From Lewinella sp. LCG006 (GTDB lineage Bacteria; Bacteroidota; Bacteroidia; Chitinophagales; Saprospiraceae): DNA of 64,000 nt. The stretch's first letter is position 1; every line of letters starts with the position of its first letter. The stretch is taken from positions 4,558,501 to 4,622,500 of the forward strand of contig NZ_CP160680.1 in assembly GCF_040784935.1 (NCBI RefSeq). Reading direction: 5' to 3'. Positions 4,721 to 63,797 of this stretch are shown one piece after another. The translations under genes were made by a program, and so were the position numbers. Under the pieces are notes generated by a model. The model was not told the origin of the DNA, made no database searches, and saw nothing but the letters and a program-made list of their open reading frames with translations.

Positions 4721-5890
4721 TCAGCGCACATCCAGAATTTTTATCTCTACCCGTTGGTTGCGTTTTCGTCCCGCAGCCGTTTCATTGGTATCAATAGGTA
4801 CTTCTTTACCGTAGCCTTTGTAGCGCACCCGACTGCGTGGTATGCCTTTCCTTACCAGATAATCTGCCACTGATTTTGCCCGTGCCGTAGAAAGCGTTTC
4901 AGCATAGCGGGCATCGGCCCAACCATTGGTATGGCCACCCACTTCGATGATAACATCGCTATTGTTGGCCAGGAAGTTGCGCAATTCTTCGAGTGCAGGC
5001 AAGGAGGCAGGAATAATCCTGGAGCTATCAGCCTCAAACTGAATATCGTCGAGGGTAATCGTCTTTCCAGCCGTCATTTCTGAACGTTTCACCCCTGCCA
5101 GGCTCGTACTGGAAGCCTCCTGGTTGTTGGTGGGAGTATTTTTAGGCTCTGTTACAACTCGCGTAACCACTGGATCGGGCGACCTGGGGGTCACACTGGC
5201 CAGGGGTTGGTTGGTTGGTTCAGGATCCTGAGGGCCTTCTGCTATTTCCTGCGAACAGGGAAGCGGCTCAATCATCGAAGCATCGTCGAGAAGCAGGTTG
5301 CCATTGTAAGGGAAGAGGGAAGGCGTCTGGTAAAACGCTTCAAGTACAATGTGGGTATAACTAGCTCCTGGTTCGAATTTAAACTCGAATTCTTTCCAGT
5401 CTGGATTACTCACCAGCGGAGACTCATCCAGCAATTCGCGTTTGTCACAAGTACCGAAGCCACCCCAAATCCGCAGTTTTACGGGTTTGATATAATTGGC
5501 GGGTACATTCTTCTCTCGGCTTACACTGTAGTACGACAAGGAGCGAGCCAGTTTGATACTGAAAGAATAACAGTCTCCAAGTTGGAGCGGCTCGCTCAGT
5601 AATTGCCCCACCGCTTCCCAGGTATCGTTATCCCGCACAACCATACCCAAGTAGGTAGCACCAGCATAAGCGGGTTTGCTAACTTGGAAAGTGAGTTCGG
5701 GTTGGATATCTGGAGGTGATTCGTCGGGAGATCCACAGTTGCTCCAGTAACGGGGTGTCATACTGTGGCGGGGCATATCTTCAAAAGAAGGGTTGTCCAG
5801 ACTAATAGCTTTTCCCTGAGCCTCTGCAGTAGCAGGGGCAAAAAGGATAAACAGTAGCAGACTCATAGCTAATGGCCAAACAAATTTCAT
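4721..5890 (-). CDS. OmpA-family outer-membrane protein with N-terminal ligand-binding-like domain
   Basis: A 389-residue exported protein. The start at 5890 gives a clean signal peptide (MKFVWPLAMSLLLF then ATAEAQG); longer in-frame starts upstream would bury it. Residues about 30-230 resemble a carbohydrate-binding-like beta-sandwich (NPSFED, then a long stretch with few helices), followed by a proline/threonine-rich linker. The last 110 residues are an OmpA/MotB peptidoglycan-binding domain: ITLDDIQFEADSS, VGGHTNGWADARYAETLS, RAKSVADYLV, GYGKEVPIDTN and RKRNQRVEI. It should tether the outer membrane to the wall in the periplasm. It is transcribed alone and ends at a strong terminator. Confidence 0.85.
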   Translation of the reverse strand: MKFVWPLAMSLLLFILFAPATAEAQGKAISLDNPSFEDMPRHSMTPRYWSNCGSPDESPPDIQPELTFQVSKPAYAGATYLGMVVRDNDTWEAVGQLLSEPLQLGDCYSFSIKLARSLSYYSVSREKNVPANYIKPVKLRIWGGFGTCDKRELLDESPLVSNPDWKEFEFKFEPGASYTHIVLEAFYQTPSLFPYNGNLLLDDASMIEPLPCSQEIAEGPQDPEPTNQPLASVTPRSPDPVVTRVVTEPKNTPTNNQEASSTSLAGVKRSEMTAGKTITLDDIQFEADSSRIIPASLPALEELRNFLANNSDVIIEVGGHTNGWADARYAETLSTARAKSVADYLVRKGIPRSRVRYKGYGKEVPIDTNETAAGRKRNQRVEIKILDVR

Positions 5891-5923
5891 TGGCTTCGTG
5901 CTTTTATAAATCATCAAGGAAGA

Positions 5924-5931
5924 CAAAATTA
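5924..5931 (-). promoter_or_regulatory. Putative -7 box for the OmpA-family gene
   Basis: Read on the minus strand this is TAATTTTG, matching TAnnTTTG. It lies about 35 bases ahead of the chosen start at 5890 and supports that start over the longer ones. Confidence 0.35.
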
Positions 5932-6060
5932 ATGCTAATTGTGCACTAATAACGTTCAATAGGGGCGAAATTGTTATGAATAAGTGCCTAAAATGAAGGC
6001 AATCCCGCAGCTTTTGCTATGAAAGTCTTAGGTAGGGTTGTTTAGTGTGTCAAGTGTAAG

Positions 6061-6107: not shown

Positions 6108-7334
6108 TTACTTAAAGGCGTTGATCCCCGTTACCGCCATTCCTGTAATCAGGAGGTGAATGTCGTGGGTACCTTCGTACGTCAGTACTGTTTCAAGGTT
6201 CATCATGTGCCGCATGACGGGGTATTCGTTGGTGATGCCCATGCCGCCATGGATTTGACGAGCTTCACGCGCTACGTCCAGTGCCATGGCTACGTTGTTG
6301 CGCTTGGCCATACTGATCTGTGCAGGCGTTGCCTGGCCTTTGTTGGCCAAGGTTCCCAGGCGCCAGGCTAGCAGCTGAGCTTTGGTGATTTCGGTCAGCA
6401 TTTCCGCCAATTTCTTCTGCGTGAGTTGGAAGCCAGCAATAGGTTTGCCAAACTGTACCCGTTCCATACTGTAACGCAGGGCCGAATCATAGCAATCAAG
6501 CGCAGCTCCAATCGCACCCCAGGCAATTCCGTAGCGGGCTTTGCTCAGGCACGAAAGTGGGCCTTTCAGTCCTTGTACGTGTGGCAACACATTCGCTTTA
6601 GGTACGCGTACGTCTTCAAATACCAGCTCGCCCGTGATGCTGGCACGTAGCGACCACTTGCCATGAATTTGTGGCGCTGAAAAGCCTTCCATGCCTTTTT
6701 CTACGATCAAACCACGGATAATGCCTTCTTCATCTTTGGCCCAAACCACAGCGATGTCGGCCAGCGGAGAGTTGGTGATCCACATTTTGGCACCGTTCAG
6801 GATATAGGCATCACCATCATCTTTGATGTTGGTGACCATTCCGTCGGGGTTAGAGCCGTGGTCCGGTTCCGTCAGGCCAAAGCAGCCAATAAATTCACCA
6901 CTGCCTAATTTGGGCAGGTATTTGCGCTTTTGCTCCTCTGAACCAAAGCGATAAATCGGATACATGACCAAAGAACCCTGGACGGAAGCCATAGAGCGGA
7001 TGCCCGAATCGCCTCGCTCCAGTTCTTGCATGATTACGCCGTAGGCAATTTCGTCCATGCCACCACCGCCATATTCTGCAGGGATACTTGGTCCAAAAGC
7101 ACCGATTTCAGCGAGGCCTTTATAAAGGTGTGTAGGACATTCGCCACGTTCAGTGTATTCTTCAATAATCGGAGAAACCTCTTGCTTTACCCAATCACGT
7201 ACTGCGGCGCGTGCCATGCGGTGATCCTCGTCGAGGAGATCATCCACCAGGTAGTGATCGTGAAACTGGAAGCGGTCTTCCCGTGCTTTCTTTTCGATGG
7301 TCGGAGAAACAGTCCCGTTATTGTTCGTTGCCAT
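6108..7334 (-). CDS. gcdH: Glutaryl-CoA dehydrogenase-type acyl-CoA dehydrogenase
   Basis: A 408-residue FAD-dependent acyl-CoA dehydrogenase. ERGDSGIRSMASVQGSLVM (about residues 107-124) matches the glutaryl-CoA dehydrogenase pattern, including the arginine (R113 here) that assists decarboxylation of the glutaconyl intermediate. The catalytic base is the glutamate of TYEGTHDIHLL (E387). FGLTEPDHGSNP and WITNSPLADI are the usual flavin-contacting segments. The enzyme would convert glutaryl-CoA to crotonyl-CoA in lysine/tryptophan breakdown and pass electrons to ETF. A 3-hydroxyacyl-CoA dehydrogenase that could act further down this route lies 4 kb away but is not in the same operon. The substrate call rests on motif resemblance. 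Confidence 0.88.
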   Translation of the reverse strand: MATNNNGTVSPTIEKKAREDRFQFHDHYLVDDLLDEDHRMARAAVRDWVKQEVSPIIEEYTERGECPTHLYKGLAEIGAFGPSIPAEYGGGGMDEIAYGVIMQELERGDSGIRSMASVQGSLVMYPIYRFGSEEQKRKYLPKLGSGEFIGCFGLTEPDHGSNPDGMVTNIKDDGDAYILNGAKMWITNSPLADIAVVWAKDEEGIIRGLIVEKGMEGFSAPQIHGKWSLRASITGELVFEDVRVPKANVLPHVQGLKGPLSCLSKARYGIAWGAIGAALDCYDSALRYSMERVQFGKPIAGFQLTQKKLAEMLTEITKAQLLAWRLGTLANKGQATPAQISMAKRNNVAMALDVAREARQIHGGMGITNEYPVMRHMMNLETVLTYEGTHDIHLLITGMAVTGINAFK

Positions 7335-30437: not shown

Positions 30438-31421
30438 TTAATAACTCACCATCATCGCTCGCTCCGCTTTCGATTTAAACAATTCCATGTCAGCTTCCAG
30501 TTGATTAAAAAAGACCTCCCGGAAACGGTACCCTCCAGCGGTGATGTTTTCGGAGCGACGCTTGATCTTATCTACCCATTTTTTGGAGTAATCGTAAAGT
30601 GCCGGGTCGTGAGAAATCATAAACTGGGGCATATCAAATCCGATGCCAGTTGCCCGCAGATCCAGAGCTTCAAAAATGACCATGTTTTGGTAATTGCCAA
30701 ATTCGTTGATGTAAATCTGAATTTTCCCATGTTGGGGGTGATCCTGCCTGTTTTCGGCGAAAGCCAGTTGCTTGAGGTTCTTTAAAAGATGCTCTAAATC
30801 GCCAATCAACTGCGTAATGAAAGCTTGGTCTTTAAAAGCTTTGATGCTGATCGCAAAAAGGATTTGCTGAAAGATGTTGGCCAACATATTGGAGTTCCAT
30901 ATCTCTGTCACTCGTCGAGAATGGTAATGACCGATGATCCGGTTTCTTAAGCCGAGAATTTCGGGTTGAATGGACGCTCGGTCAGAGATAATCAGTTCTT
31001 GCTGCGACCAGTGCATGTGATTCCAAATGTCCACCAGAAATTTAAAAATAGCGTCGTATTCCAAATAGTAAAATACCGGTAGCTCATTGGCCAGGTAGAT
31101 GAGCTTTGACTCCGCCTCTTCCTCAGGCATGACTGGGCGCATGATCTCCAAAAAGCACTTTAGAAAATCAATACTACTCCTCACTTCCCGGAAAGGGTGT
31201 GAAAAAGTGTGGTAGCCTTCAGTGCCGAGGGTGGTATCCAGCGAGACATTAAATTGCTCTGCAAGCTTTACTGCTTCACTGAGTGTCAGCGCAGTATCGC
31301 CACTCATGCGTTTGTAAACCGCGGCTTTTTGCAGGTGCAAGATGTCCATTGTGTCGTGCAAAACGCCTTTTTTGCCAAAGCGGTAAACCAAATAATCAAA
31401 GAGTTTTTTTTGAGCGTCCAT
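30438..31421 (-). CDS. HTH-like regulator-type protein of unknown family
   Basis: A 327-residue cytoplasmic protein. Residues about 1-70 (MDAQKKLFDYLVYRFGKKG, LHLQKAAVYKRMSGDTALTL, SEAVKLAEQFNVSLD) read as a helix-turn-helix of the BetR/XRE style, in which the second helix contacts DNA. The remaining ~250 residues are helical with no recognised domain. A longer frame from 31526 is open, but the ATG at 31421 removes a composition unlike the rest of the protein. Similar proteins occur as orphans in Saprospiria-type genomes (from memory of the group, not checked). It has no operon partners. Function: a DNA-binding regulator by inference only. Confidence 0.55.
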   Translation of the reverse strand: MDAQKKLFDYLVYRFGKKGVLHDTMDILHLQKAAVYKRMSGDTALTLSEAVKLAEQFNVSLDTTLGTEGYHTFSHPFREVRSSIDFLKCFLEIMRPVMPEEEAESKLIYLANELPVFYYLEYDAIFKFLVDIWNHMHWSQQELIISDRASIQPEILGLRNRIIGHYHSRRVTEIWNSNMLANIFQQILFAISIKAFKDQAFITQLIGDLEHLLKNLKQLAFAENRQDHPQHGKIQIYINEFGNYQNMVIFEALDLRATGIGFDMPQFMISHDPALYDYSKKWVDKIKRRSENITAGGYRFREVFFNQLEADMELFKSKAERAMMVSY

Positions 31422-31814
31422 GCTTTGCGCGTTGATAGAGAGAAGAGGAATTATTCTACAATATAGAGAAAGTTGCCTTGGTTTTGTACAAAATTTGTTT
31501 GAATCGTAGAATAAAAAAAGAAGCACTTCACGAATAGGATTTTCTTTTATAAATCTCTGCGCCTAATATTGTGGAGAAGGATTTACTGCATTTCTTAAAC
31601 TTCAAGCCAAAACCTAACACTAAACCAGAATCGGGGATTAGAGATGCTTTCAGCCCCGTTCGGCGTAGGCTTTATACGCTTACTAAAAAACCTTCTCTGA
31701 CAGTTTTGTGGTCAAGCTAAAGTGAAAATCGTAAGCGACTGAGAAGGAGCGTGATTTTTACTTTAGCTTGACTCTAAACACAAAAATTGTCTGATAATCA
31801 TAACTACGACCACC
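31422..31814. other. Upstream region of the duplicated surface module
   Basis: Between divergent genes. It holds the large inverted repeat at 31699-31791, and otherwise shows no clear gene. The sequence at 31560-31690 has no feature I can name. Confidence 0.4.
31699..31791. repeat. 93-bp imperfect inverted repeat (MITE-like or long hairpin)
   Basis: The 20-base arms GTCAAGCTAAAGTGAAAATC (31711-31730) and GATTTTTACTTTAGCTTGAC (31753-31772) differ at one position, with outer arms GACAGTTTTGTG and CACAAAAATTGTC extending the stem. It ends 23 bases before the first lipoprotein gene. It could be a miniature inverted-repeat element or a transcribed hairpin affecting the module. Confidence 0.55.
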
Positions 31815-32360
31815 ATGCTACCAAAACATTACCTCTTCCTCCTCTTTCTCCTCCCCGCCCTGTGCTGGACGGCCTGCGAAAAATCCATCTTCAATCCCCA
31901 ATCCGCAGCGAAAGTTTTACCTCCCATCACTACGACCGGGGAAGGTACTTTCGGTTGCAAGATCAATGGAGAAGTGTTCCTGCATACGCCCAAGCCGTTT
32001 GATGATCATATTACGGTGTATTATGATGATTTTCGTGACTACTTCTATCTGAATGCGACAGAAAGTATTGGCGATAAATATAATCAAACGATGCATCTAT
32101 ATGTGCATGAAATTTCATCAGAGGGTGTTTATCAATTCCATGATTTAAATTACACGAGCTATAATGATTCTTGTATGACGATTTTTGGATTAGATAAAGA
32201 CTACTTGTTTTTAGATGAACCTTCTCAAATGGAAATCATCCATTTTGATCCCGAAGCACGCATCATCTCAGGCACTTTCCAGTTCACCGTCGTATCCGAA
32301 GAATGTCAGGATACCTTCCGTATTACGGAGGGGCGTTTTGATATGCCGTGGTTGTATTAA
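31815..32360 (+). CDS. Surface lipoprotein of the duplicated module, copy 1
   Basis: A 181-residue lipoprotein: signal peptide, lipobox LCWTAC (cysteine at about residue 20). The next part (GTFGCKINGEVFLHTPKPF) resembles the DUF6252-like domain of Bacteroidota lipoproteins. It is paired with the T9SS protein gene starting 44 bases downstream. Compared with copy 2 (33949-34494), the first ~74 residues and the last ~43 residues are almost identical, while the middle (about residues 75-139) has diverged strongly though keeping the same length. The function is unknown; a surface-exposed role is inferred from the lipid anchor and the pairing. Confidence 0.75.
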   Translation: MLPKHYLFLLFLLPALCWTACEKSIFNPQSAAKVLPPITTTGEGTFGCKINGEVFLHTPKPFDDHITVYYDDFRDYFYLNATESIGDKYNQTMHLYVHEISSEGVYQFHDLNYTSYNDSCMTIFGLDKDYLFLDEPSQMEIIHFDPEARIISGTFQFTVVSEECQDTFRITEGRFDMPWLY

Positions 32361-32404
32361 AAAACGCTCCTTTTTCTGGATTTAGGAACTTAACCCATCC
32401 CTCT

Positions 32405-33940
32405 ATGCGACTATTCATTACTACATTACTCCTGTTTCTCACCTACTATTCCGCCCAAGCCCAAGCGGGCTTCATCCAGTCGTACGAACTCTACGAAGAC
32501 AAAGGGCTTACCTTTCACCAGATATTATTGGTGGAAGACACCCTGGTGGTATGTGGCAGCACCAGTAACCCTGATGCTCCGCAATGGGGGCTGTTTTTTG
32601 CCAAACTGGATACCCTGGGGAATATCCTGGACTACAAAACCTACTATGACAGTGCTGGCTACAACTATGTTTTTGAAGAAGGGGCAAAGATGATTAAAAC
32701 CAACGATGGCGGCTATGCGCTGGTGGGGAGCAGATTCGAGAGTTCCATTCCGTTGATCTTTAAGTTGGATGTAGAAGGAGAAATCGTATTCATTGGTGAA
32801 TATCCAGATGAAAGTACCTCTACAAAGCGACACGTAGATGTTATTGAAATAGAAAATGGATACATATCTATTGGCCGAAAACAACAAATGGATGATGGTC
32901 TCAGTGATGGCTTTGCGATGGGAGTAGATCAAGCAGGGAACAAGTTGTGGGAGCTTAATTATGGGGAGAATGGATTGGGGGATGGTTTTTGGGGGATAAG
33001 AATAATAGCTTCCAACGAAATACTATTAACTGGTGGTTCAGGAATTGTAACGCCAGTCTACAACCCAATAGAAGGTGCCTGGGGGAAAGCAATAGCAATC
33101 AAAATTGATACCCTGGGGAATATTTTATGGGAGTGGGAGAGTGAGCAAGTGCTTACGGGTTCGGGGTCTGGCCCGGCATTTGGAAGAATTTATCCCACTG
33201 CTGATGGTAATTGGGTGAATGAAGGATATTCCCAAGCGATAGAAGAGCTTTTCGGAGAATCTACCATTTTGTCAAAAGGAGAAATCGTAAAAAGAGATAC
33301 AAACTTCAATGTTTTGTGGAGTACTTCCTTTGGAGACTATACAACCTTCACGAACAATTTTACCGACGTCGTCGCCACCCCTGACGGTGGTTGGGTAGCG
33401 GTGGGTACCTACGGGCAATTGGTCGACCCGGTGGAATACACGGGCTACCGCGCGGGCATGATCGCCAAGGTAAATGCCCAGGGAGATAGCCTTTGGAGCC
33501 GGCTGGATACCCTGTTTACCCCTGCCTATGGCTCCATCCCCAGCCTGGCCAATGCGGTGGTCTTGCCCAGCGGCAGCATCATCGCCTGCGGCAAGGTAGA
33601 CCGCTACGAACCCGACCCCGTCAAATCGCTGGGCTGGATCATCAAAGTAGATCGCGATGGTTGCCTGGAACCCAACTGCCGCCCAACAAGTACGAGCGAA
33701 CTCTTTCCGGATATACTGGATTTTACGGTTTTCCCCAACCCCGCCCGAGAGCTGCTCCAGATCAAAGGAGAGGGCCAATTTGCGGTGAGCATCTACAGCC
33801 TGGACGGAAAAATTCACCTGTCTCAAGAGAAACTGTTTCAAACCGCTACTTTGGAGGTCGGTGACCTTCCGTCGGGCATTTACTTTTTACAAATCAGACA
33901 AGGCAACCAGTTGCTTACGAAGCGGATTGTCAAGCAATAA
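32405..33940 (+). CDS. T9SS-exported repeat protein of the duplicated module, copy 1
   Basis: A 511-residue exported protein. The start at 32405 gives the signal peptide MRLFITTLLLFLTYYSAQAQ; longer frames upstream lack one. The body is built of beta-propeller-like blades with the recurrent pattern DTLGN-(I/V)-L-(D/W)-(W/Y)..., MIKTNDGGYALVGSR, PDGGWVAVGTYG, as in large secreted propellers. The last ~80 residues form a T9SS type A sorting domain (DFTVFPNPARELLQIKG, GDLPSGIYFLQIRQG, KRIVKQ). Residues about 188-320 are the diverged core; both flanks are nearly identical to copy 2. The ligand is unknown. Confidence 0.8.
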   Translation: MRLFITTLLLFLTYYSAQAQAGFIQSYELYEDKGLTFHQILLVEDTLVVCGSTSNPDAPQWGLFFAKLDTLGNILDYKTYYDSAGYNYVFEEGAKMIKTNDGGYALVGSRFESSIPLIFKLDVEGEIVFIGEYPDESTSTKRHVDVIEIENGYISIGRKQQMDDGLSDGFAMGVDQAGNKLWELNYGENGLGDGFWGIRIIASNEILLTGGSGIVTPVYNPIEGAWGKAIAIKIDTLGNILWEWESEQVLTGSGSGPAFGRIYPTADGNWVNEGYSQAIEELFGESTILSKGEIVKRDTNFNVLWSTSFGDYTTFTNNFTDVVATPDGGWVAVGTYGQLVDPVEYTGYRAGMIAKVNAQGDSLWSRLDTLFTPAYGSIPSLANAVVLPSGSIIACGKVDRYEPDPVKSLGWIIKVDRDGCLEPNCRPTSTSELFPDILDFTVFPNPARELLQIKGEGQFAVSIYSLDGKIHLSQEKLFQTATLEVGDLPSGIYFLQIRQGNQLLTKRIVKQ

Positions 33941-33948
33941 TCACCACC

Positions 33949-34494
33949 ATGCTACCAAACCATTACCTCTTCCTCCTGTTGCTCCTACCCGCGCTATGCT
34001 GGACGGCCTGCGAAAAATCCATCTTCAATCCCCAACCCGCAGTAAAAGTTTTATCTCCCATCACCATGACGGGGGAAGGTACTTTTGGTTGTAAGATCAA
34101 TGGAGAAGTGTTCCTGCATACGCCCAAGCCGTTTGATGATCATATTACGGTGTATTATGATGATTTTCGGAATACTTTTTTTGTTCAGGCTTCAAGTAGT
34201 GAGGGAGGAGAATTGAAAAAAATGGTTCAGGTTTATGCTGATAGTTTATCAAATGAAGGTGTTTATACTTTAAAAGGAGTAATCTACACCGAATTTAATG
34301 ACCCATGTACTGATTATCCGATGCTTAATGAAGATTATTTAGTCTTGGAAGAAAATTATCAAACAGAAATCATCCATTTCGATCCCGAAGCACGCATCAT
34401 CTCCGGCACTTTCCAGTTCACCGTCGTATCCGAAGAATGTCAGGATACCTTCCGTATTACGGAGGGGCGTTTTGATATGCCCTGGGTGTATTAA
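33949..34494 (+). CDS. Surface lipoprotein of the duplicated module, copy 2
   Basis: A 181-residue lipoprotein with the same architecture as copy 1, beginning eight bases after the stop of the first T9SS gene. Its signal peptide and first ~74 residues, and its last ~43 residues (EIIHFDPEARIISGTF, RFDMPWVY), are nearly identical to copy 1. The middle differs in most residues (for example NTFFVQASSSEGGELKKMV against DYFYLNATESIGDKYNQTM). Both copies keep the same length, so divergence was by substitution or replacement, not by insertion. The function is unknown. Confidence 0.75.
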   Translation: MLPNHYLFLLLLLPALCWTACEKSIFNPQPAVKVLSPITMTGEGTFGCKINGEVFLHTPKPFDDHITVYYDDFRNTFFVQASSSEGGELKKMVQVYADSLSNEGVYTLKGVIYTEFNDPCTDYPMLNEDYLVLEENYQTEIIHFDPEARIISGTFQFTVVSEECQDTFRITEGRFDMPWVY

Positions 34495-34540
34495 AAAAAA
34501 CGCTCCTTTTTCTGGATTTAGGAACTTACCCCATCCCTCT

Positions 34541-36076
34541 ATGCGACTATTCATTACTACATTACTCCTCTTCCTCACCTACTATTCCGCTCAAACCCAA
34601 GCGGGCTTCATCCAATCCTACGAACTCTACGAAGACAAAGGGCTTACCTTTCACCAGATATTATTGGTGGAAGACACCCTGGTGGTATGTGGCAGTGCCA
34701 ATAACCCTGATGCTCCGCAATGGGGGCTGTTTTTTGCCAAACTGGATACCCTGGGGAATATGCTGGATTACAAAACCCACTATGACAGTGCTGGTTACAA
34801 CTATGTTTTTGAAGAAGGGGCAAAGATGATTAAAACCAGTGATGGTGGCTACGCCTTGGTGGGGAGCAGATTCGAGAGTTCCATTCCTTTGATTTTTAAG
34901 TTGGATACTGAAGGAGAGATCGTATTCATCGGTGAATATCCTGACGAAAGTACTTTTACAAAGCGACACTTACATATTGTTGAAATAGAAAACGGATACA
35001 TATCTATTGGTCGAAAACAACAAATGGATGATGGTCTCAGTAATGGCTTTGCGATGGGCGTGGATCAAGCAGGTAACAAGTTGTGGGAGCTTAATTATGG
35101 AGGATTTGGTCTATCGGAAATGTTTAAAGGAATTAACCTGCTTTCTGAAAACGAAGTGCTACTGACAGGAAGTAGGGGCGTAACTGGTGAGCAGGTCAAT
35201 ACTTATCATGATTTATGGGGAAAAGGCGTAGCTGTAATAATAGATACCCTCGGTAATGTTTTATGGGAGTGGGAGAGTGAGCAGGTATATATTGGAGAAG
35301 GCCCATCTGTCGGATTTTCGAGGCAATATCCAACGGAAGATGGTGGCTGGATCGGTGAAGGGGCATTCAGTATTGTAGATACGCTGTTTGGAGAAGAATA
35401 TGTACTATTTAGGAATATTATCATCAAAAGAGACGCTGATTTTAATATACAATGGTATACCTCATTTGGTGAAAATACTACCTCCATGAATCAATTCATC
35501 GACGTAGTCGCCACCCCTGACGGCGGTTGGGTAGCGGTGGGCACCTACTGGGAATTGGTCGACCCGGTGGAATACACGGGCTACCGCGCGGGTATGATCG
35601 CCAAGGTAAACGCCCAGGGAGATAGCCTTTGGAGCCGGCTGGATACCCTGTTTACCCCTGCCTATGGCTCCATCCCCAGCCTGGCCAATGCGGTGGTCTT
35701 GCCCAGCGGCAGCATCATCGCCTGCGGCAAGGTAGACCGCTACGAGCCTGATCCGGTCAAATCGCTGGGCTGGCTGATCAAAGTAGATCGCGATGGTTGC
35801 CTGGAACCCAACTGCCGCCCAACAAGCACCAGCGAACTCTTTCCGGATATACTGGATTTTACGGTTTTTCCCAACCCCGCCCGAGAGCTGCTCCAGATCA
35901 AAGGAGAGGGCCAATTTGCGGTGAGCATCTACAGCCTGGACGGAAAAATTCATCTGTCTCAAGAGAAACTGTTTCAAACCGCTACTTTGGAGGTCGGTGA
36001 CCTTCCGTCGGGCATTTACTTTTTACAAATCAGACAAGGCAATCAGCTGCTTACGAAGCGGATTGTTAAGCAATAA
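34541..36076 (+). CDS. T9SS-exported repeat protein of the duplicated module, copy 2
   Basis: A 511-residue exported propeller-like protein, the paralogue of the copy at 32405. Start chosen at 34541 for the same signal peptide (MRLFITTLLLFLTYYSAQTQ). The first ~187 residues and the last ~190 residues match copy 1 almost residue for residue, including the T9SS sorting domain, while about residues 188-320 are diverged and more AT-rich at DNA level. Both keep 511 residues. The pair offset is 2134-2136 bases, showing a tandem duplication of the lipoprotein plus T9SS unit. Possible roles (surface adhesion, receptor variation) are inference. Confidence 0.8.
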   Translation: MRLFITTLLLFLTYYSAQTQAGFIQSYELYEDKGLTFHQILLVEDTLVVCGSANNPDAPQWGLFFAKLDTLGNMLDYKTHYDSAGYNYVFEEGAKMIKTSDGGYALVGSRFESSIPLIFKLDTEGEIVFIGEYPDESTFTKRHLHIVEIENGYISIGRKQQMDDGLSNGFAMGVDQAGNKLWELNYGGFGLSEMFKGINLLSENEVLLTGSRGVTGEQVNTYHDLWGKGVAVIIDTLGNVLWEWESEQVYIGEGPSVGFSRQYPTEDGGWIGEGAFSIVDTLFGEEYVLFRNIIIKRDADFNIQWYTSFGENTTSMNQFIDVVATPDGGWVAVGTYWELVDPVEYTGYRAGMIAKVNAQGDSLWSRLDTLFTPAYGSIPSLANAVVLPSGSIIACGKVDRYEPDPVKSLGWLIKVDRDGCLEPNCRPTSTSELFPDILDFTVFPNPARELLQIKGEGQFAVSIYSLDGKIHLSQEKLFQTATLEVGDLPSGIYFLQIRQGNQLLTKRIVKQ

Positions 36077-36089
36077 TCCTTCGTGCCTT

Positions 36090-46827: not shown

Positions 46828-46844
46828 GGTTTTAAGGTGTAAGA

Positions 46845-47016
46845 GTTGGGTAGGTGTAAAGGTGTAAGGGTTGGGTGATTCCGCTAGTAGCATCAACTAC
46901 TTCCGATTTCCGACTTTGGAAAGTGTAAAAGTTGGGTAGGTGTAAAGGTGTAAAAGTTGGGTGATCCCGCTAGTAGCATCAACTACTTCCTACTTCCGAC
47001 TTTGAAAAGTATAAAG
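46845..47016. repeat. Two 86-bp tandem direct repeats
   Basis: Unit 1 (46845-46930) and unit 2 (46931-47016) each begin GTTGGGTAGGTGTAAAGGTG and contain CCGCTAGTAGCATCAACTAC. They differ at a few positions. An inverted partial copy follows at 47039-47071 (CCCAACCCTTACACTTTTAC), and a faint relative is at 10287-10345. The gene-free stretch 46806-47106 contains little else. Confidence 0.7.
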
Positions 47017-47017
47017 G

Positions 47018-47025
47018 TATATTTG
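47018..47025 (+). promoter_or_regulatory. Putative -7 box (TATATTTG) of the DUF4293 gene
   Basis: TATATTTG lies 82 bases ahead of the ATG at 47107, directly at the end of the second 86-bp repeat. The repeat's last bases would supply the upstream promoter part. Confidence 0.4.
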
Positions 47026-47553: not shown

Positions 47554-47664
47554 AAAATAAGGTGATCCAATTTGGGTTTAGTAAAAAAAGATAAGCAACC
47601 GACAAGATGGAGGTTGCGTTCTTTTTCTTACTAAACCTTGAAACAAATTGGATCATCTTATTTT
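47554..47664. repeat. 111-bp long hairpin / MITE-like inverted repeat
   Basis: Outer arms AAAATAAGGTGATCCAATTTG (47554-47574) and CAAATTGGATCATCTTATTTT (47644-47664) and inner arms 47575-47600 with 47612-47637 make a nearly continuous stem of about 45 base pairs around an 11-base loop (47601-47611). It lies between the DUF4293 gene and the dockerin-like gene. As a transcript it would form a long double-stranded hairpin; as DNA it resembles a non-autonomous mobile element. No target duplication is evident. Confidence 0.6.
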
Positions 47665-51390: not shown

Positions 51391-51810
51391 CACTCATTGA
51401 TCTTTATTGGCCATGCCATCGTAGGGTATGAAATCCTGCCCTAGGGAGTGTCTACCGTCATTTGGATGTTTGGATGGATCAGACCTGATCGTACGAACAC
51501 GATCATACGATCGGGCAGGCATGATCGTACCAACACGATCATACGATTGGGCAGGCCTGATCGTACCAACACGATCATACGATTTGGGAATCCTGATCGT
51601 ACGAACACGATCATACGATCGGGCAGACCTGATCGTACCAATACGATCATACGATCATCAAGGCACCCCGTAAGACTGAAAATACACTTTCAAGAATACT
51701 GGCTGACATTCGGCTGGTTCTTAACACCAATCACAGCAGAGAAAAACAAGAATACTTGTCAAGTCCCAATATCCTTCTTAGTTTTAGGCTTGTTAAAAGT
51801 GGATGATGTT
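51391..51810. other. Intergenic region with a 36-bp minisatellite
   Basis: A 420-base stretch between namZ and the arylsulfotransferase-like gene. Apart from the repeat at 51484-51657, it is without a known gene. A reading frame is open from 51448 through the repeat into the downstream gene, but it is a consequence of the 36-bp period and is not considered a real extension. Confidence 0.45.
51484..51657. repeat. 36-bp tandem repeat, five copies, palindromic and GATC-dense
   Basis: Five units start at 51486, 51522, 51558, 51594 and 51630. Each opens TGATCGTAC and holds ACGATCATACGAT, so GATCGTA and TACGATC can pair within a unit. The last copy is partial. Units 1 and 4 are near-identical; units 2, 3 and 5 vary at the 3' part. 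Each has two or three GATC sites, thirteen in total. There are no unique spacers, so it is not a CRISPR. It could be a protein-binding cluster, a recombination or phase element, or a silent minisatellite. Confidence 0.9.
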
Positions 51811-62326: not shown

Positions 62327-62572
62327 TTGAATAGGATATTAGGTGAAAAAGTTATAGGCATAACTCTTCCTGCTCGCTAGCAAGGCTGCAAGGAAGGGCC
62401 AAAACGTATTAAGTTCTTGCGCTGGCTAGCAGAACAAAAACTTTCGTTGAAATTTACTTTAGGGGAGGAGGGGGGAAGCATTGCGACCAGCAACACTCGG
62501 AGGGTATATGAAACCGGGAGGCATATATCCTCCCGGTTAAACACTTATTGATGAAAACAGCTAAGTACTGTT
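62327..62572. other. Intergenic region
   Basis: Contains the upstream region of the T9SS gene and the terminator at 62512-62538. Nothing else is recognised. Confidence 0.3.
62512..62538 (-). terminator. Terminator after the tail-collar gene pair
   Basis: Ten-base arms AACCGGGAGG and CCTCCCGGTT around a 7-base loop, 34 bases past the stop of the second tail-collar gene. Confidence 0.7.
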
Positions 62573-63151
62573 TTAATTTCTGGAAGGAAATACGCCATAC
62601 AGGGCAATAATGTAATTGACAGCCAGGTAGGGCATCTGGTTTTCGTGAGATTGACTACCTCCAGTGTTTTGCAACTGTAGGTTGACGCCCAGGGTATTAA
62701 CCACTCCACCTAGCAATTCGGCAGGGTCAGCAGGCTGGTTGTTGTAGATGTTAGCGGCTGCTTCACCTAAAACATTACCAGAACCTTCCCCAGAATTACT
62801 CGTTTCCGTGTTGGTCGCAACGCCGAAAGTGCCAGTTATTGCCGCAGTAGGTGTGTGTGTATGGTTGGGCATTTCCGCTTGTGTAAGGGTGTGCGTCGGT
62901 TGACCACCCTTTTGGCCTTCTCGGTAGGTAGGTAGACCTGGCCCAGTACCCGAAGAAATAGGAAGCCTGCCTCTAAGATCAGGAAGGGCAAAAGTGGTAC
63001 GTCCGTCACCACCATAGATGGTGCCTAAAATGGAAAAAAGGGCAGTGTTCTGTGCGATGGGTAATAGTTGTCCTTCACAGAGTGCCCAGCTACGAGGAGC
63101 AAAATTACCGGCAAACATGCGGATTTCTCCTATAAAGCCTTCTTGTGCCAT
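62573..63151 (-). CDS. Phage tail collar / microcystin-dependent-type protein, copy 2
   Basis: A 192-residue protein of the phage tail collar family (often annotated tail fiber or microcystin-dependent protein MdpB). The N-terminus GFIGEIRMFAGNFAPRSWAL, then CEGQLLPIAQNTALFSILGT, YGGDGRTTFALPDLRGR and MPNHTHT are conserved family motifs. The central stretch ATNTETSNSGEGSGNV to PAELLGGV is shared with copy 1. The family is common outside phages in Bacteroidota, usually in groups of two or three genes; its function there is unknown, possibly as an extracellular contractile-system or adhesion component. It lies 73 bases from the end of copy 1. Confidence 0.88.
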   Translation of the reverse strand: MAQEGFIGEIRMFAGNFAPRSWALCEGQLLPIAQNTALFSILGTIYGGDGRTTFALPDLRGRLPISSGTGPGLPTYREGQKGGQPTHTLTQAEMPNHTHTPTAAITGTFGVATNTETSNSGEGSGNVLGEAAANIYNNQPADPAELLGGVVNTLGVNLQLQNTGGSQSHENQMPYLAVNYIIALYGVFPSRN

Positions 63152-63224
63152 GATGTATAGCTTTTAGTGACAAAATATACACTCCTTGAGGAGGTGTAAT
63201 TTTGGCTTGGTTAAGAGAAATGAT

Positions 63225-63797
63225 TTAGCTTCTTGACGGGAAGATGCCTTGCAGGGCAATAATATAGTAGACGGCAAGATAGGGTTGCATATTGTTGTGA
63301 TCTAGGTTACCACCCGTAGCACCAATTTGTACATTGACCCCCAAATTGTTTTGTACACCTCCCAATAATTCAGCAGGGTCAGCAGGCTGGTTGTTGTAGA
63401 TGTTAGCTGCTGCTTCACCAAGTACATTGCCAGAGCCTTCTCCCGAGTTACTCGTTTCGGTGTTGGTAGCAATACCAATACTGCCCGACAGTGCAGCTAC
63501 AGCACCATGGGTGTGAGATGGAATTTCGTTTGTATTCAGGGTTACGGTCGGCGTACCACCTCTTTGTCCGAGGCGATAATTGGGAAGACCAGGACCTGTA
63601 CCAGGGCCGATAGGTGCACGGCCACGCAGGTCAGGTAAGGCAAACGTCGTCCGTCCGTCACCACCGTAAGTAGTGCCCAGGATAGAGAATAAAGCTTGGT
63701 TTTGAGAAATAGCAAGTAGCTGGCCTTCACAAAAAGCCCAAAAACGGGGTGCGAAATTACCCGCAAACAAGCGGATTTCACCAATCATCGGTTGCAT
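63225..63797 (-). CDS. Phage tail collar / microcystin-dependent-type protein, copy 1
   Basis: A 190-residue paralogue of the gene at 62573. The start motif is PMIGEIRLFAGNFAPRFWAF, then CEGQLLAISQNQALFSILGT and YGGDGRTTFALPDLRGRAPI, and IPSHTHG. The ~39-residue central segment is identical in protein to copy 2, although the DNA differs at synonymous positions, so the segment is under constraint rather than freshly copied. Transcription runs leftwards through both genes. No phage structural genes are near. Confidence 0.88.
   Translation of the reverse strand: MQPMIGEIRLFAGNFAPRFWAFCEGQLLAISQNQALFSILGTTYGGDGRTTFALPDLRGRAPIGPGTGPGLPNYRLGQRGGTPTVTLNTNEIPSHTHGAVAALSGSIGIATNTETSNSGEGSGNVLGEAAANIYNNQPADPAELLGGVQNNLGVNVQIGATGGNLDHNNMQPYLAVYYIIALQGIFPSRS

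Follow-up and report, generated by a model that had tools for sequence, protein, structure and literature searches.

How can two neighbouring copies of the same pair of genes stay nearly identical at both ends of each gene and differ at almost every second base in between? This question is raised by a locus of Lewinella sp. LCG006 on contig NZ_CP160680.1, lying in the window, i.e. the whole stretch of DNA that was analysed (64,000 nucleotides, positions 4,558,501 to 4,622,500). There, two consecutive units, A and B, each encode a lipoprotein of the Riean_0653 family and a protein carrying a sorting domain of the type IX secretion system (T9SS). The overall explanation that we favour, and which we consider probable, is an old tandem duplication of this unit of lipoprotein and T9SS cargo, after which neighbouring copies would have recombined homologously, by gene conversion or unequal crossover, so that the gene ends stayed alike. 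The cores would be older lineages, probably too diverged for conversion.

A first-pass annotation, made from the sequence alone, had described near-identical ends and diverged cores of equal length in both gene pairs. A likelihood search for change points between A and B confirmed this description, with sharp steps in identity and borders that match those given before. In the lipoprotein gene, 94 of 196 core bases differ (48%) vs. 19 of 347 in the flanks (5.5%); in the T9SS gene the corresponding values are 183 of 399 (46%) and 60 of 1134 (5.3%). The best two-breakpoint scores were 136.7 for the lipoprotein and 320.6 for the T9SS gene, with maxima of 20.8 and 23.9 in 200 shuffles each. The sole length difference in the A/B alignment consists of 2 bases located between the lipoprotein and T9SS genes.

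Base-by-base comparison of synonymous (dS) and nonsynonymous (dN) divergence, which had been proposed as a check, showed that divergence is not uniform along the units. Nei-Gojobori dS values of the four flanks were 0.23, 0.13, 0.27 and 0.13, whereas the cores reached 1.95 and saturation. Because synonymous sites step at the same borders, the core divergence is, as judged from these sequences, older than the flank divergence. A jump in dS is beyond what selection confined to the cores could produce. This makes it very improbable that the unit was simply duplicated and that diversifying selection then acted on the cores, even though the cores are the most diverged part of array members and core dN/dS reached 1.00 and 1.15 in two listed tandem pairs of relatives. 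Core dN was below dS in the window (dN/dS of about 0.3 in the lipoprotein core), and the same holds for the remaining listed pairs, of which many are saturated. Moreover, cores are not always fast, as between three congeneric species the core was better conserved (0.94-0.96 identity) than the start (0.79-0.93). As an additional influence, diversifying selection on the cores may exist.

For comparison with related tandem genes, the lipoprotein family offers many of them. Both window lipoproteins exceed the cut-off of the NCBIfam Riean_0653 profile NF052634 (57 bits), and their lipobox cysteine, C21, is conserved in the family alignment; matches to Pfam DUF6252 (22.6 and 17.8 bits) lie below the gathering cut-off of 27.2. 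NF052634 matches were found in 135 of 298 genomes of the taxonomic family (E 1e-5; 50 over cut-off) and in 100 of 395 genomes of the class (E 1e-8; 33 over cut-off). Of the regions used, L075-L154 were picked from profile matches, favouring contigs with several matches, and L155-L234 comprise the 80 best-matching of 281 stretches found in a scan of named genomes, whose sources include Saprospiraceae, Hymenobacter, Kordia, Tenacibaculum and Flavobacterium. Array sizes and partner rates derived from them thus describe a non-random sample and are not population estimates. Dropping duplicates between fetches left 230 of 251 full-length lipoproteins; L153, which repeats the L108 contig, was excluded.

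Fifty loci, the window among them, supplied 95 pairs of adjacent tandem lipoproteins, whose median DNA identity was 0.76 in the start, 0.42 in the core and 0.65 in the end; the start exceeded the core in 85 pairs and the end exceeded it in 94. As a control for shared constraint, between-loci pairs matched on core divergence were used: at a core identity of 0.3-0.4, start identity was 0.67 in tandem pairs (n=32) vs. 0.38 between loci (n=584). The same picture is seen in the seven-copy array L175, where the identity between neighbouring copies is 0.80-0.93 in the start, 0.28-0.46 in the core and 0.83-0.98 in the end. A separate observation concerns L098, in which two neighbouring lipoprotein genes (6217-6729 and 6754-7266) are 100% identical; this may reflect a very recent duplication or complete conversion, with an assembly effect also possible.

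More direct insight was obtained from a four-gene test on two species of one genus, each genome holding both core types. In the start, 26 sites grouped the genes by genome, none by type and 1 in the third grouping. In the core, 26 sites grouped them by type, 5 by genome and 3 in the third grouping, and in the end 9 grouped by genome, 2 by type and 4 in the third way. These counts use part borders set by hand on that alignment; under family-wide borders the same quartet gave 20:0 by genome in the start and 26:6 by type in the core. In a scan of 30991 quartets, with thresholds of our own choosing and quartets that overlap, 12 were crossed in this manner, coming from 7 pairs of genomes or loci, and 0 showed the opposite arrangement. 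Additionally, the gene of L217 matches one member of the L201 array at 100% over the upstream 60 and first 90 bases, and another member at 97-100% per 30-base block, beginning near base 181 and continuing for 80 bases past the gene end, with a mixed stretch in between. L217 is thus an apparent recombinant, most simply explained by unequal recombination in the shared start, with misassembly possible in these metagenome-assembled contigs. Genes with a local start and a foreign core numbered 7 of 147 and those of the reverse sense 2 of 147, which makes this a weak signal once close species pairs are left aside. Altogether, the suggestion of the first-pass annotation that the ends undergo gene conversion while the cores have diversified finds support in the dS step, the matched control, the four-gene test and this one apparent recombinant. 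We regard recombination as the very probable mechanism; it is visible in relatives and indicated in the window by the step in dS.

In the case of the T9SS protein, the mosaic has to be read against its own family. Proteins A and B are repeat-rich and match the type A sorting domain TIGR04183, and a Pfam scan found nothing else over cut-off. Members of the family occur in 65 of 248 genomes (E 1e-8); a scan of genome contigs queried with the T9SS protein returned no relative. Between A and B, amino acid identity is 0.93 in the start, 0.48 in the core and 0.97 in the end. Compared with five relatives (one of the same genus, four of other genera), both proteins show 0.40-0.51, 0.31-0.47 and 0.50-0.60 in these parts, and core A alone 0.36-0.47, which is about the A-B core distance. 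By this comparison, the T9SS core shows no special variability within the family, and the unusual part is the likeness of the A and B flanks. A structure model built from the two T9SS sequences was poor (mean predicted local distance difference test score, pLDDT, of 48.3) and was discarded.

This equal distance to relatives, mostly of other genera, could also be expected if one or both cores had been swapped for diverged cassettes of another lineage by recombination in the conserved ends. Composition bears on this possibility. The AT-richness noted for the cores in the first-pass annotation is clear for the lipoproteins (GC content 0.31-0.32 in the core vs. 0.47-0.51 outside) and weaker for the T9SS proteins (0.40-0.42 vs. 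0.43-0.45 before and 0.56 after the core). In the 230 lipoproteins, GC content at third codon positions is lower in the core than in the start in 200 and than in the end in 163, and L217 seems to join a different start to a core by recombination. However, both cores of the window are AT-rich, not just one, and no donor was found. Among the 230 lipoproteins the two window cores are nearest to each other (0.52 DNA identity), with best foreign cores at 0.37 and 0.41. One cross-species pair of the four-gene case, with 77% identity in the start, 77% in the core and 64% in the end, fits vertical descent and not a recent core transfer. We therefore regard core import as unlikely, and the exchange of core cassettes proposed earlier found no support in the window, no silent copies being seen at the sensitivity of the DNA search used. 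In detail, this search of the organism's own genome (one contig, 7.5 Mb; E 0.001) matched only the window locus, and a protein query up to E 1 gave no further lipoprotein copy. The NF052634 profile gave 4 matches there at E 1e-5, two of them more distant family members, and one near full-length relative of the T9SS protein was present at 28% identity.

A sharply bordered variable block might also call to mind programmed variation by a diversity-generating retroelement or an invertible or silent-cassette system. This we consider extremely improbable. No second core copy was seen in the genome, though no search aimed at a reverse transcriptase or recombinase was made, and A and B lie in the same orientation. 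Every type of base change occurs among the A/B mismatches, and third codon positions carry the most (41 of 93 and 82 of 182), unlike the template repeat with adenine-specific substitutions of a diversity-generating retroelement.

As to possible partners of the lipoproteins, relatives point to a lipase-like T9SS cargo. Considering clusters with at least 900 bases downstream, and requiring the lipase-like match to lie outside the sorting domain, the next downstream gene encodes such a cargo in 48 of 117 clusters, compared with 16 of 989 other genes of the same regions, 14 of these 16 coming after another piece of a lipase-like gene. Another T9SS gene lies directly downstream in 4 of the 117. The PGAP1-like Pfam match of this lipase-like family was over cut-off in 1 of 6 scanned proteins, weak in 4 and missing in 1. 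In 41 of 44 distinct lipase-tagged proteins of at least 800 residues the sequence G-x-S-[MAF]-G-G is found, which we take to be the nucleophile-elbow motif of a lipase. Short fragments of lipase-like genes lie between the lipoproteins in 8 clusters, 5 of them within the first 134 profile positions. L216 holds two complete lipoprotein-lipase units in tandem, and the 3' ends of its lipase genes share a 290-base block of 86% identity (89% over the last 41 codons), most of the rest showing 20-50% amino acid identity. The end of the partner hence looks homogenised in L216 as in the window.

In mirror-tree comparisons of 38 pairs, lipase distances correlated with those of the adjacent lipoprotein core at r 0.62 and of its start at 0.46 (core partial on start 0.56). 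In 22 array loci the values were 0.59 for the adjacent core, 0.57 for the adjacent start and 0.66 for the core of the farthest lipoprotein, so that mirror-tree analysis gave the adjacent lipoprotein no preference that would speak for cognate pairing. For the window, the matched pair hinted at in the first-pass annotation, like the surface variation system (phase or antigenic) considered there, would be a conjecture.

The window contains no lipase, and the partner there is the repeat-rich T9SS protein; the lipase would have been replaced by this different T9SS protein, or would never have been adjacent. Among the first-fetched 40 lipoprotein regions, 2 include a T9SS protein somewhat similar to that of the window. 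In L075 it is the next gene, convergent and with the similarity partly in repeats, and in L094 it lies about 3 kb from the lipoprotein. A same-strand lipoprotein-T9SS pair of the window kind was found nowhere else among the sampled regions. Conversely, no Riean_0653-family lipoprotein (E 0.01) was found in the 20 regions L250-L269, each with a relative of the window T9SS protein. In 8 of these 20 regions, the relative comes after a T9SS protein of 1059-1130 residues, and an M43 peptidase domain was over cut-off in 3 of the 4 such proteins that were scanned. It is possible that this cargo and the window-type protein form a second enzyme-partner pair.

At the protein level, lipoprotein A was modelled as a beta-strand protein (mean pLDDT 83.7) in which the core is predicted to span three successive strands (76-115) and the following loop; no PDB match was found for the model at E 0.001. 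The conserved ends would correspond to export and framework parts, i.e. signal and outer strands in the lipoprotein and signal and sorting domain in the T9SS protein, with the core as a specificity surface binding a partner. A role of the core in specificity appears likely. Because relatives carry 1-7 lipoproteins per cluster, often before a lipase-like T9SS protein and sometimes with its fragments between them, an immunity-like or partner-recognition role is our leading functional guess; an immunity-like function we hold to be somewhat less likely than not.

Only slightly more doubtful is an accessory role, in which the lipoprotein would serve the folding, anchoring or activation of a secreted lipase or haemolysin and the arrays would supply several substrate or partner specificities. 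The one functional report found on this family describes four insertion mutants of Riean_0653 in Riemerella anatipestifer with greatly reduced haemolysis, one of which regained it upon complementation in trans, and a recombinant Riean_0653 protein that was not haemolytic (PMC7881567). The frequent downstream lipase-like gene and its conserved motif would suit this role as well. Against it stand the several lipoproteins per lipase and their retention where the partner is a fragment or absent; any tie of the Riemerella haemolysis to a lipase would be conjecture.

The closest known analogue of these arrays is provided by TipC and EsaG, whose immunity genes stand in tandem and belong to the type VII secretion system of firmicutes. 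These are non-identical tandem copies in which DNA blocks of high identity, one towards each end and in EsaG a third, enclose variable parts, TipC is a predicted lipoprotein, the identity blocks drive recombination that alters copy number and yields mosaics, and the most variable TipC face is implicated in toxin binding (PMC9484751). A related array even holds toxin fragments (tspA in tsaI), like the lipase fragments between lipoproteins (PMC9484751). The window and the 95 pairs likewise show tandem paralogues whose 5' and 3' blocks are conserved and whose centre varies; recombination between the blocks is seen in relatives and, in the window, indicated by dS. The differences are the phylum, the secretion system and the protein family, and the window partner is neither a lipase nor a known toxin. 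In Staphylococcus aureus, the lpl lipoprotein genes are also tandem and vary in number by recombination, but their shared block lies mid-gene and not at both gene ends (PMC9484751). Riean_0653 of Riemerella belongs with the window lipoproteins by the NF052634 cut-off; a haemolysis phenotype is reported for it, and in the available part of that report nothing was met on arrays, mosaics or neighbours (PMC7881567). In the open-licence literature, to the extent available, one Riean_0653 paper and none describing such arrays was found. The recombination mechanism is of a known kind; new, as far as we have seen, are the protein family, the secretion system and the pairing of two mosaic genes.

Several observations weigh against our explanation. 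The start is more similar than the core in 88% of 3972 random between-loci pairs, so that part of the start/core contrast is plain constraint, because it is present between unrelated loci too. The strong quartet was selected after inspection of the alignment, and only 3 of the 12 crossed quartets come from its genome pair (G225/G276), the other 9 stemming from distant loci with noisy sites and being weaker. Close relatives yielded no orthologue of the window pair (0 of 3 genomes from the same genus, lipoprotein query, E 0.001); more distant NF052634 matches below cut-off occur in 2 of these 3. Conversion in the window itself is for this reason something we infer. A single full-length lipoprotein makes up 85 of 134 clusters, and 65 of 117 have neither a T9SS nor a lipase-like gene directly downstream. 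In the window's genome no lipase-like gene was found with one query and no positive control. Finally, the haemolysis phenotype in Riemerella speaks against a purely protective role of the lipoprotein.

The layout of the locus is given in the table below. T9SS protein length is counted from ATG, longer frames opening at upstream GTG or TTG codons.

Table. Features of the duplicated locus, in window coordinates
Feature	Position	Strand	Remarks
Putative regulator, 362 residues, divergent	30438..31526	-	HTH_3 and BetR matches below Pfam cut-off
Strong inverted repeat, possible operator or terminator	31699..31791	no strand	Predicted from RNA fold of 31527-31815
Unit A	31809-33942	+	2134 bases
Lipoprotein A, Riean_0653 family, 181 residues	31815..32360	+	Lipobox cysteine is residue 21; NF052634 131.3 bits (cut-off 57)
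Lipoprotein A, diverged core	32036..32231	+	Likelihood change points
T9SS protein A, 511 residues, C-terminal sorting domain	32405..33940	+	TIGR04183 52.9 bits (cut-off 23)
T9SS protein A, diverged core	32965..33363	+	Likelihood change points
Unit B	33943-36078	+	2136 bases; head to tail with unit A
Lipoprotein B, 181 residues	33949..34494	+	NF052634 118.6 bits (cut-off 57)
Lipoprotein B, diverged core	34170..34365	+	Gapless counterpart of A core
T9SS protein B, 511 residues	34541..36076	+	TIGR04183 53.7 bits (cut-off 23)
T9SS protein B, diverged core	35101..35499	+	Gapless counterpart of A core

The inverted repeat sits between the divergent regulator gene and the lipoprotein A gene, and unit B begins 8 bases past the stop codon of T9SS protein A. 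This layout suggests one control region common to both units. In 6 other distinct loci, the regulator family adjoins Riean_0653-family lipoprotein genes. The same genome also holds, at a great distance from the window locus (7060000-7072000, L275), two fragments of the 3' part of the regulator gene (5809-5937 and 6986-7076, 88 and 73% identical), with no lipoprotein or T9SS pieces alongside. Elsewhere in the window, another direct repeat of about 565 bases was seen at 62569-63133 and 63221-63785 (69% identity), together with short overlapping tandem repeats of 99 and 104 bases at 46834-47018 and 51480-51655 (90 and 88% identity) and a self-match on the opposite strand at 47554-47664 (77% over 119 columns).

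For the biology of the family, one possible, still rather doubtful reading is that Riean_0653 arrays and their adjacent, often lipase-like T9SS cargo act in Bacteroidota as a polymorphic conflict system. In it, the lipase would be secreted to attack neighbours, the lipoprotein cores would give immunity or partner recognition, and concerted recombination at the ends of both genes would keep the framework together with an old repertoire of specificities; the window would be a variant with a second T9SS cargo family as partner, homogenised likewise. Beyond this reading, the local mosaic ties to a widespread pattern in a lipoprotein family for which one functional paper was found, the grouping of ends by genome and cores by type provides a direct evolutionary test, and the suggested pairing of lipoprotein and lipase within type IX secretion is one that can be tested.

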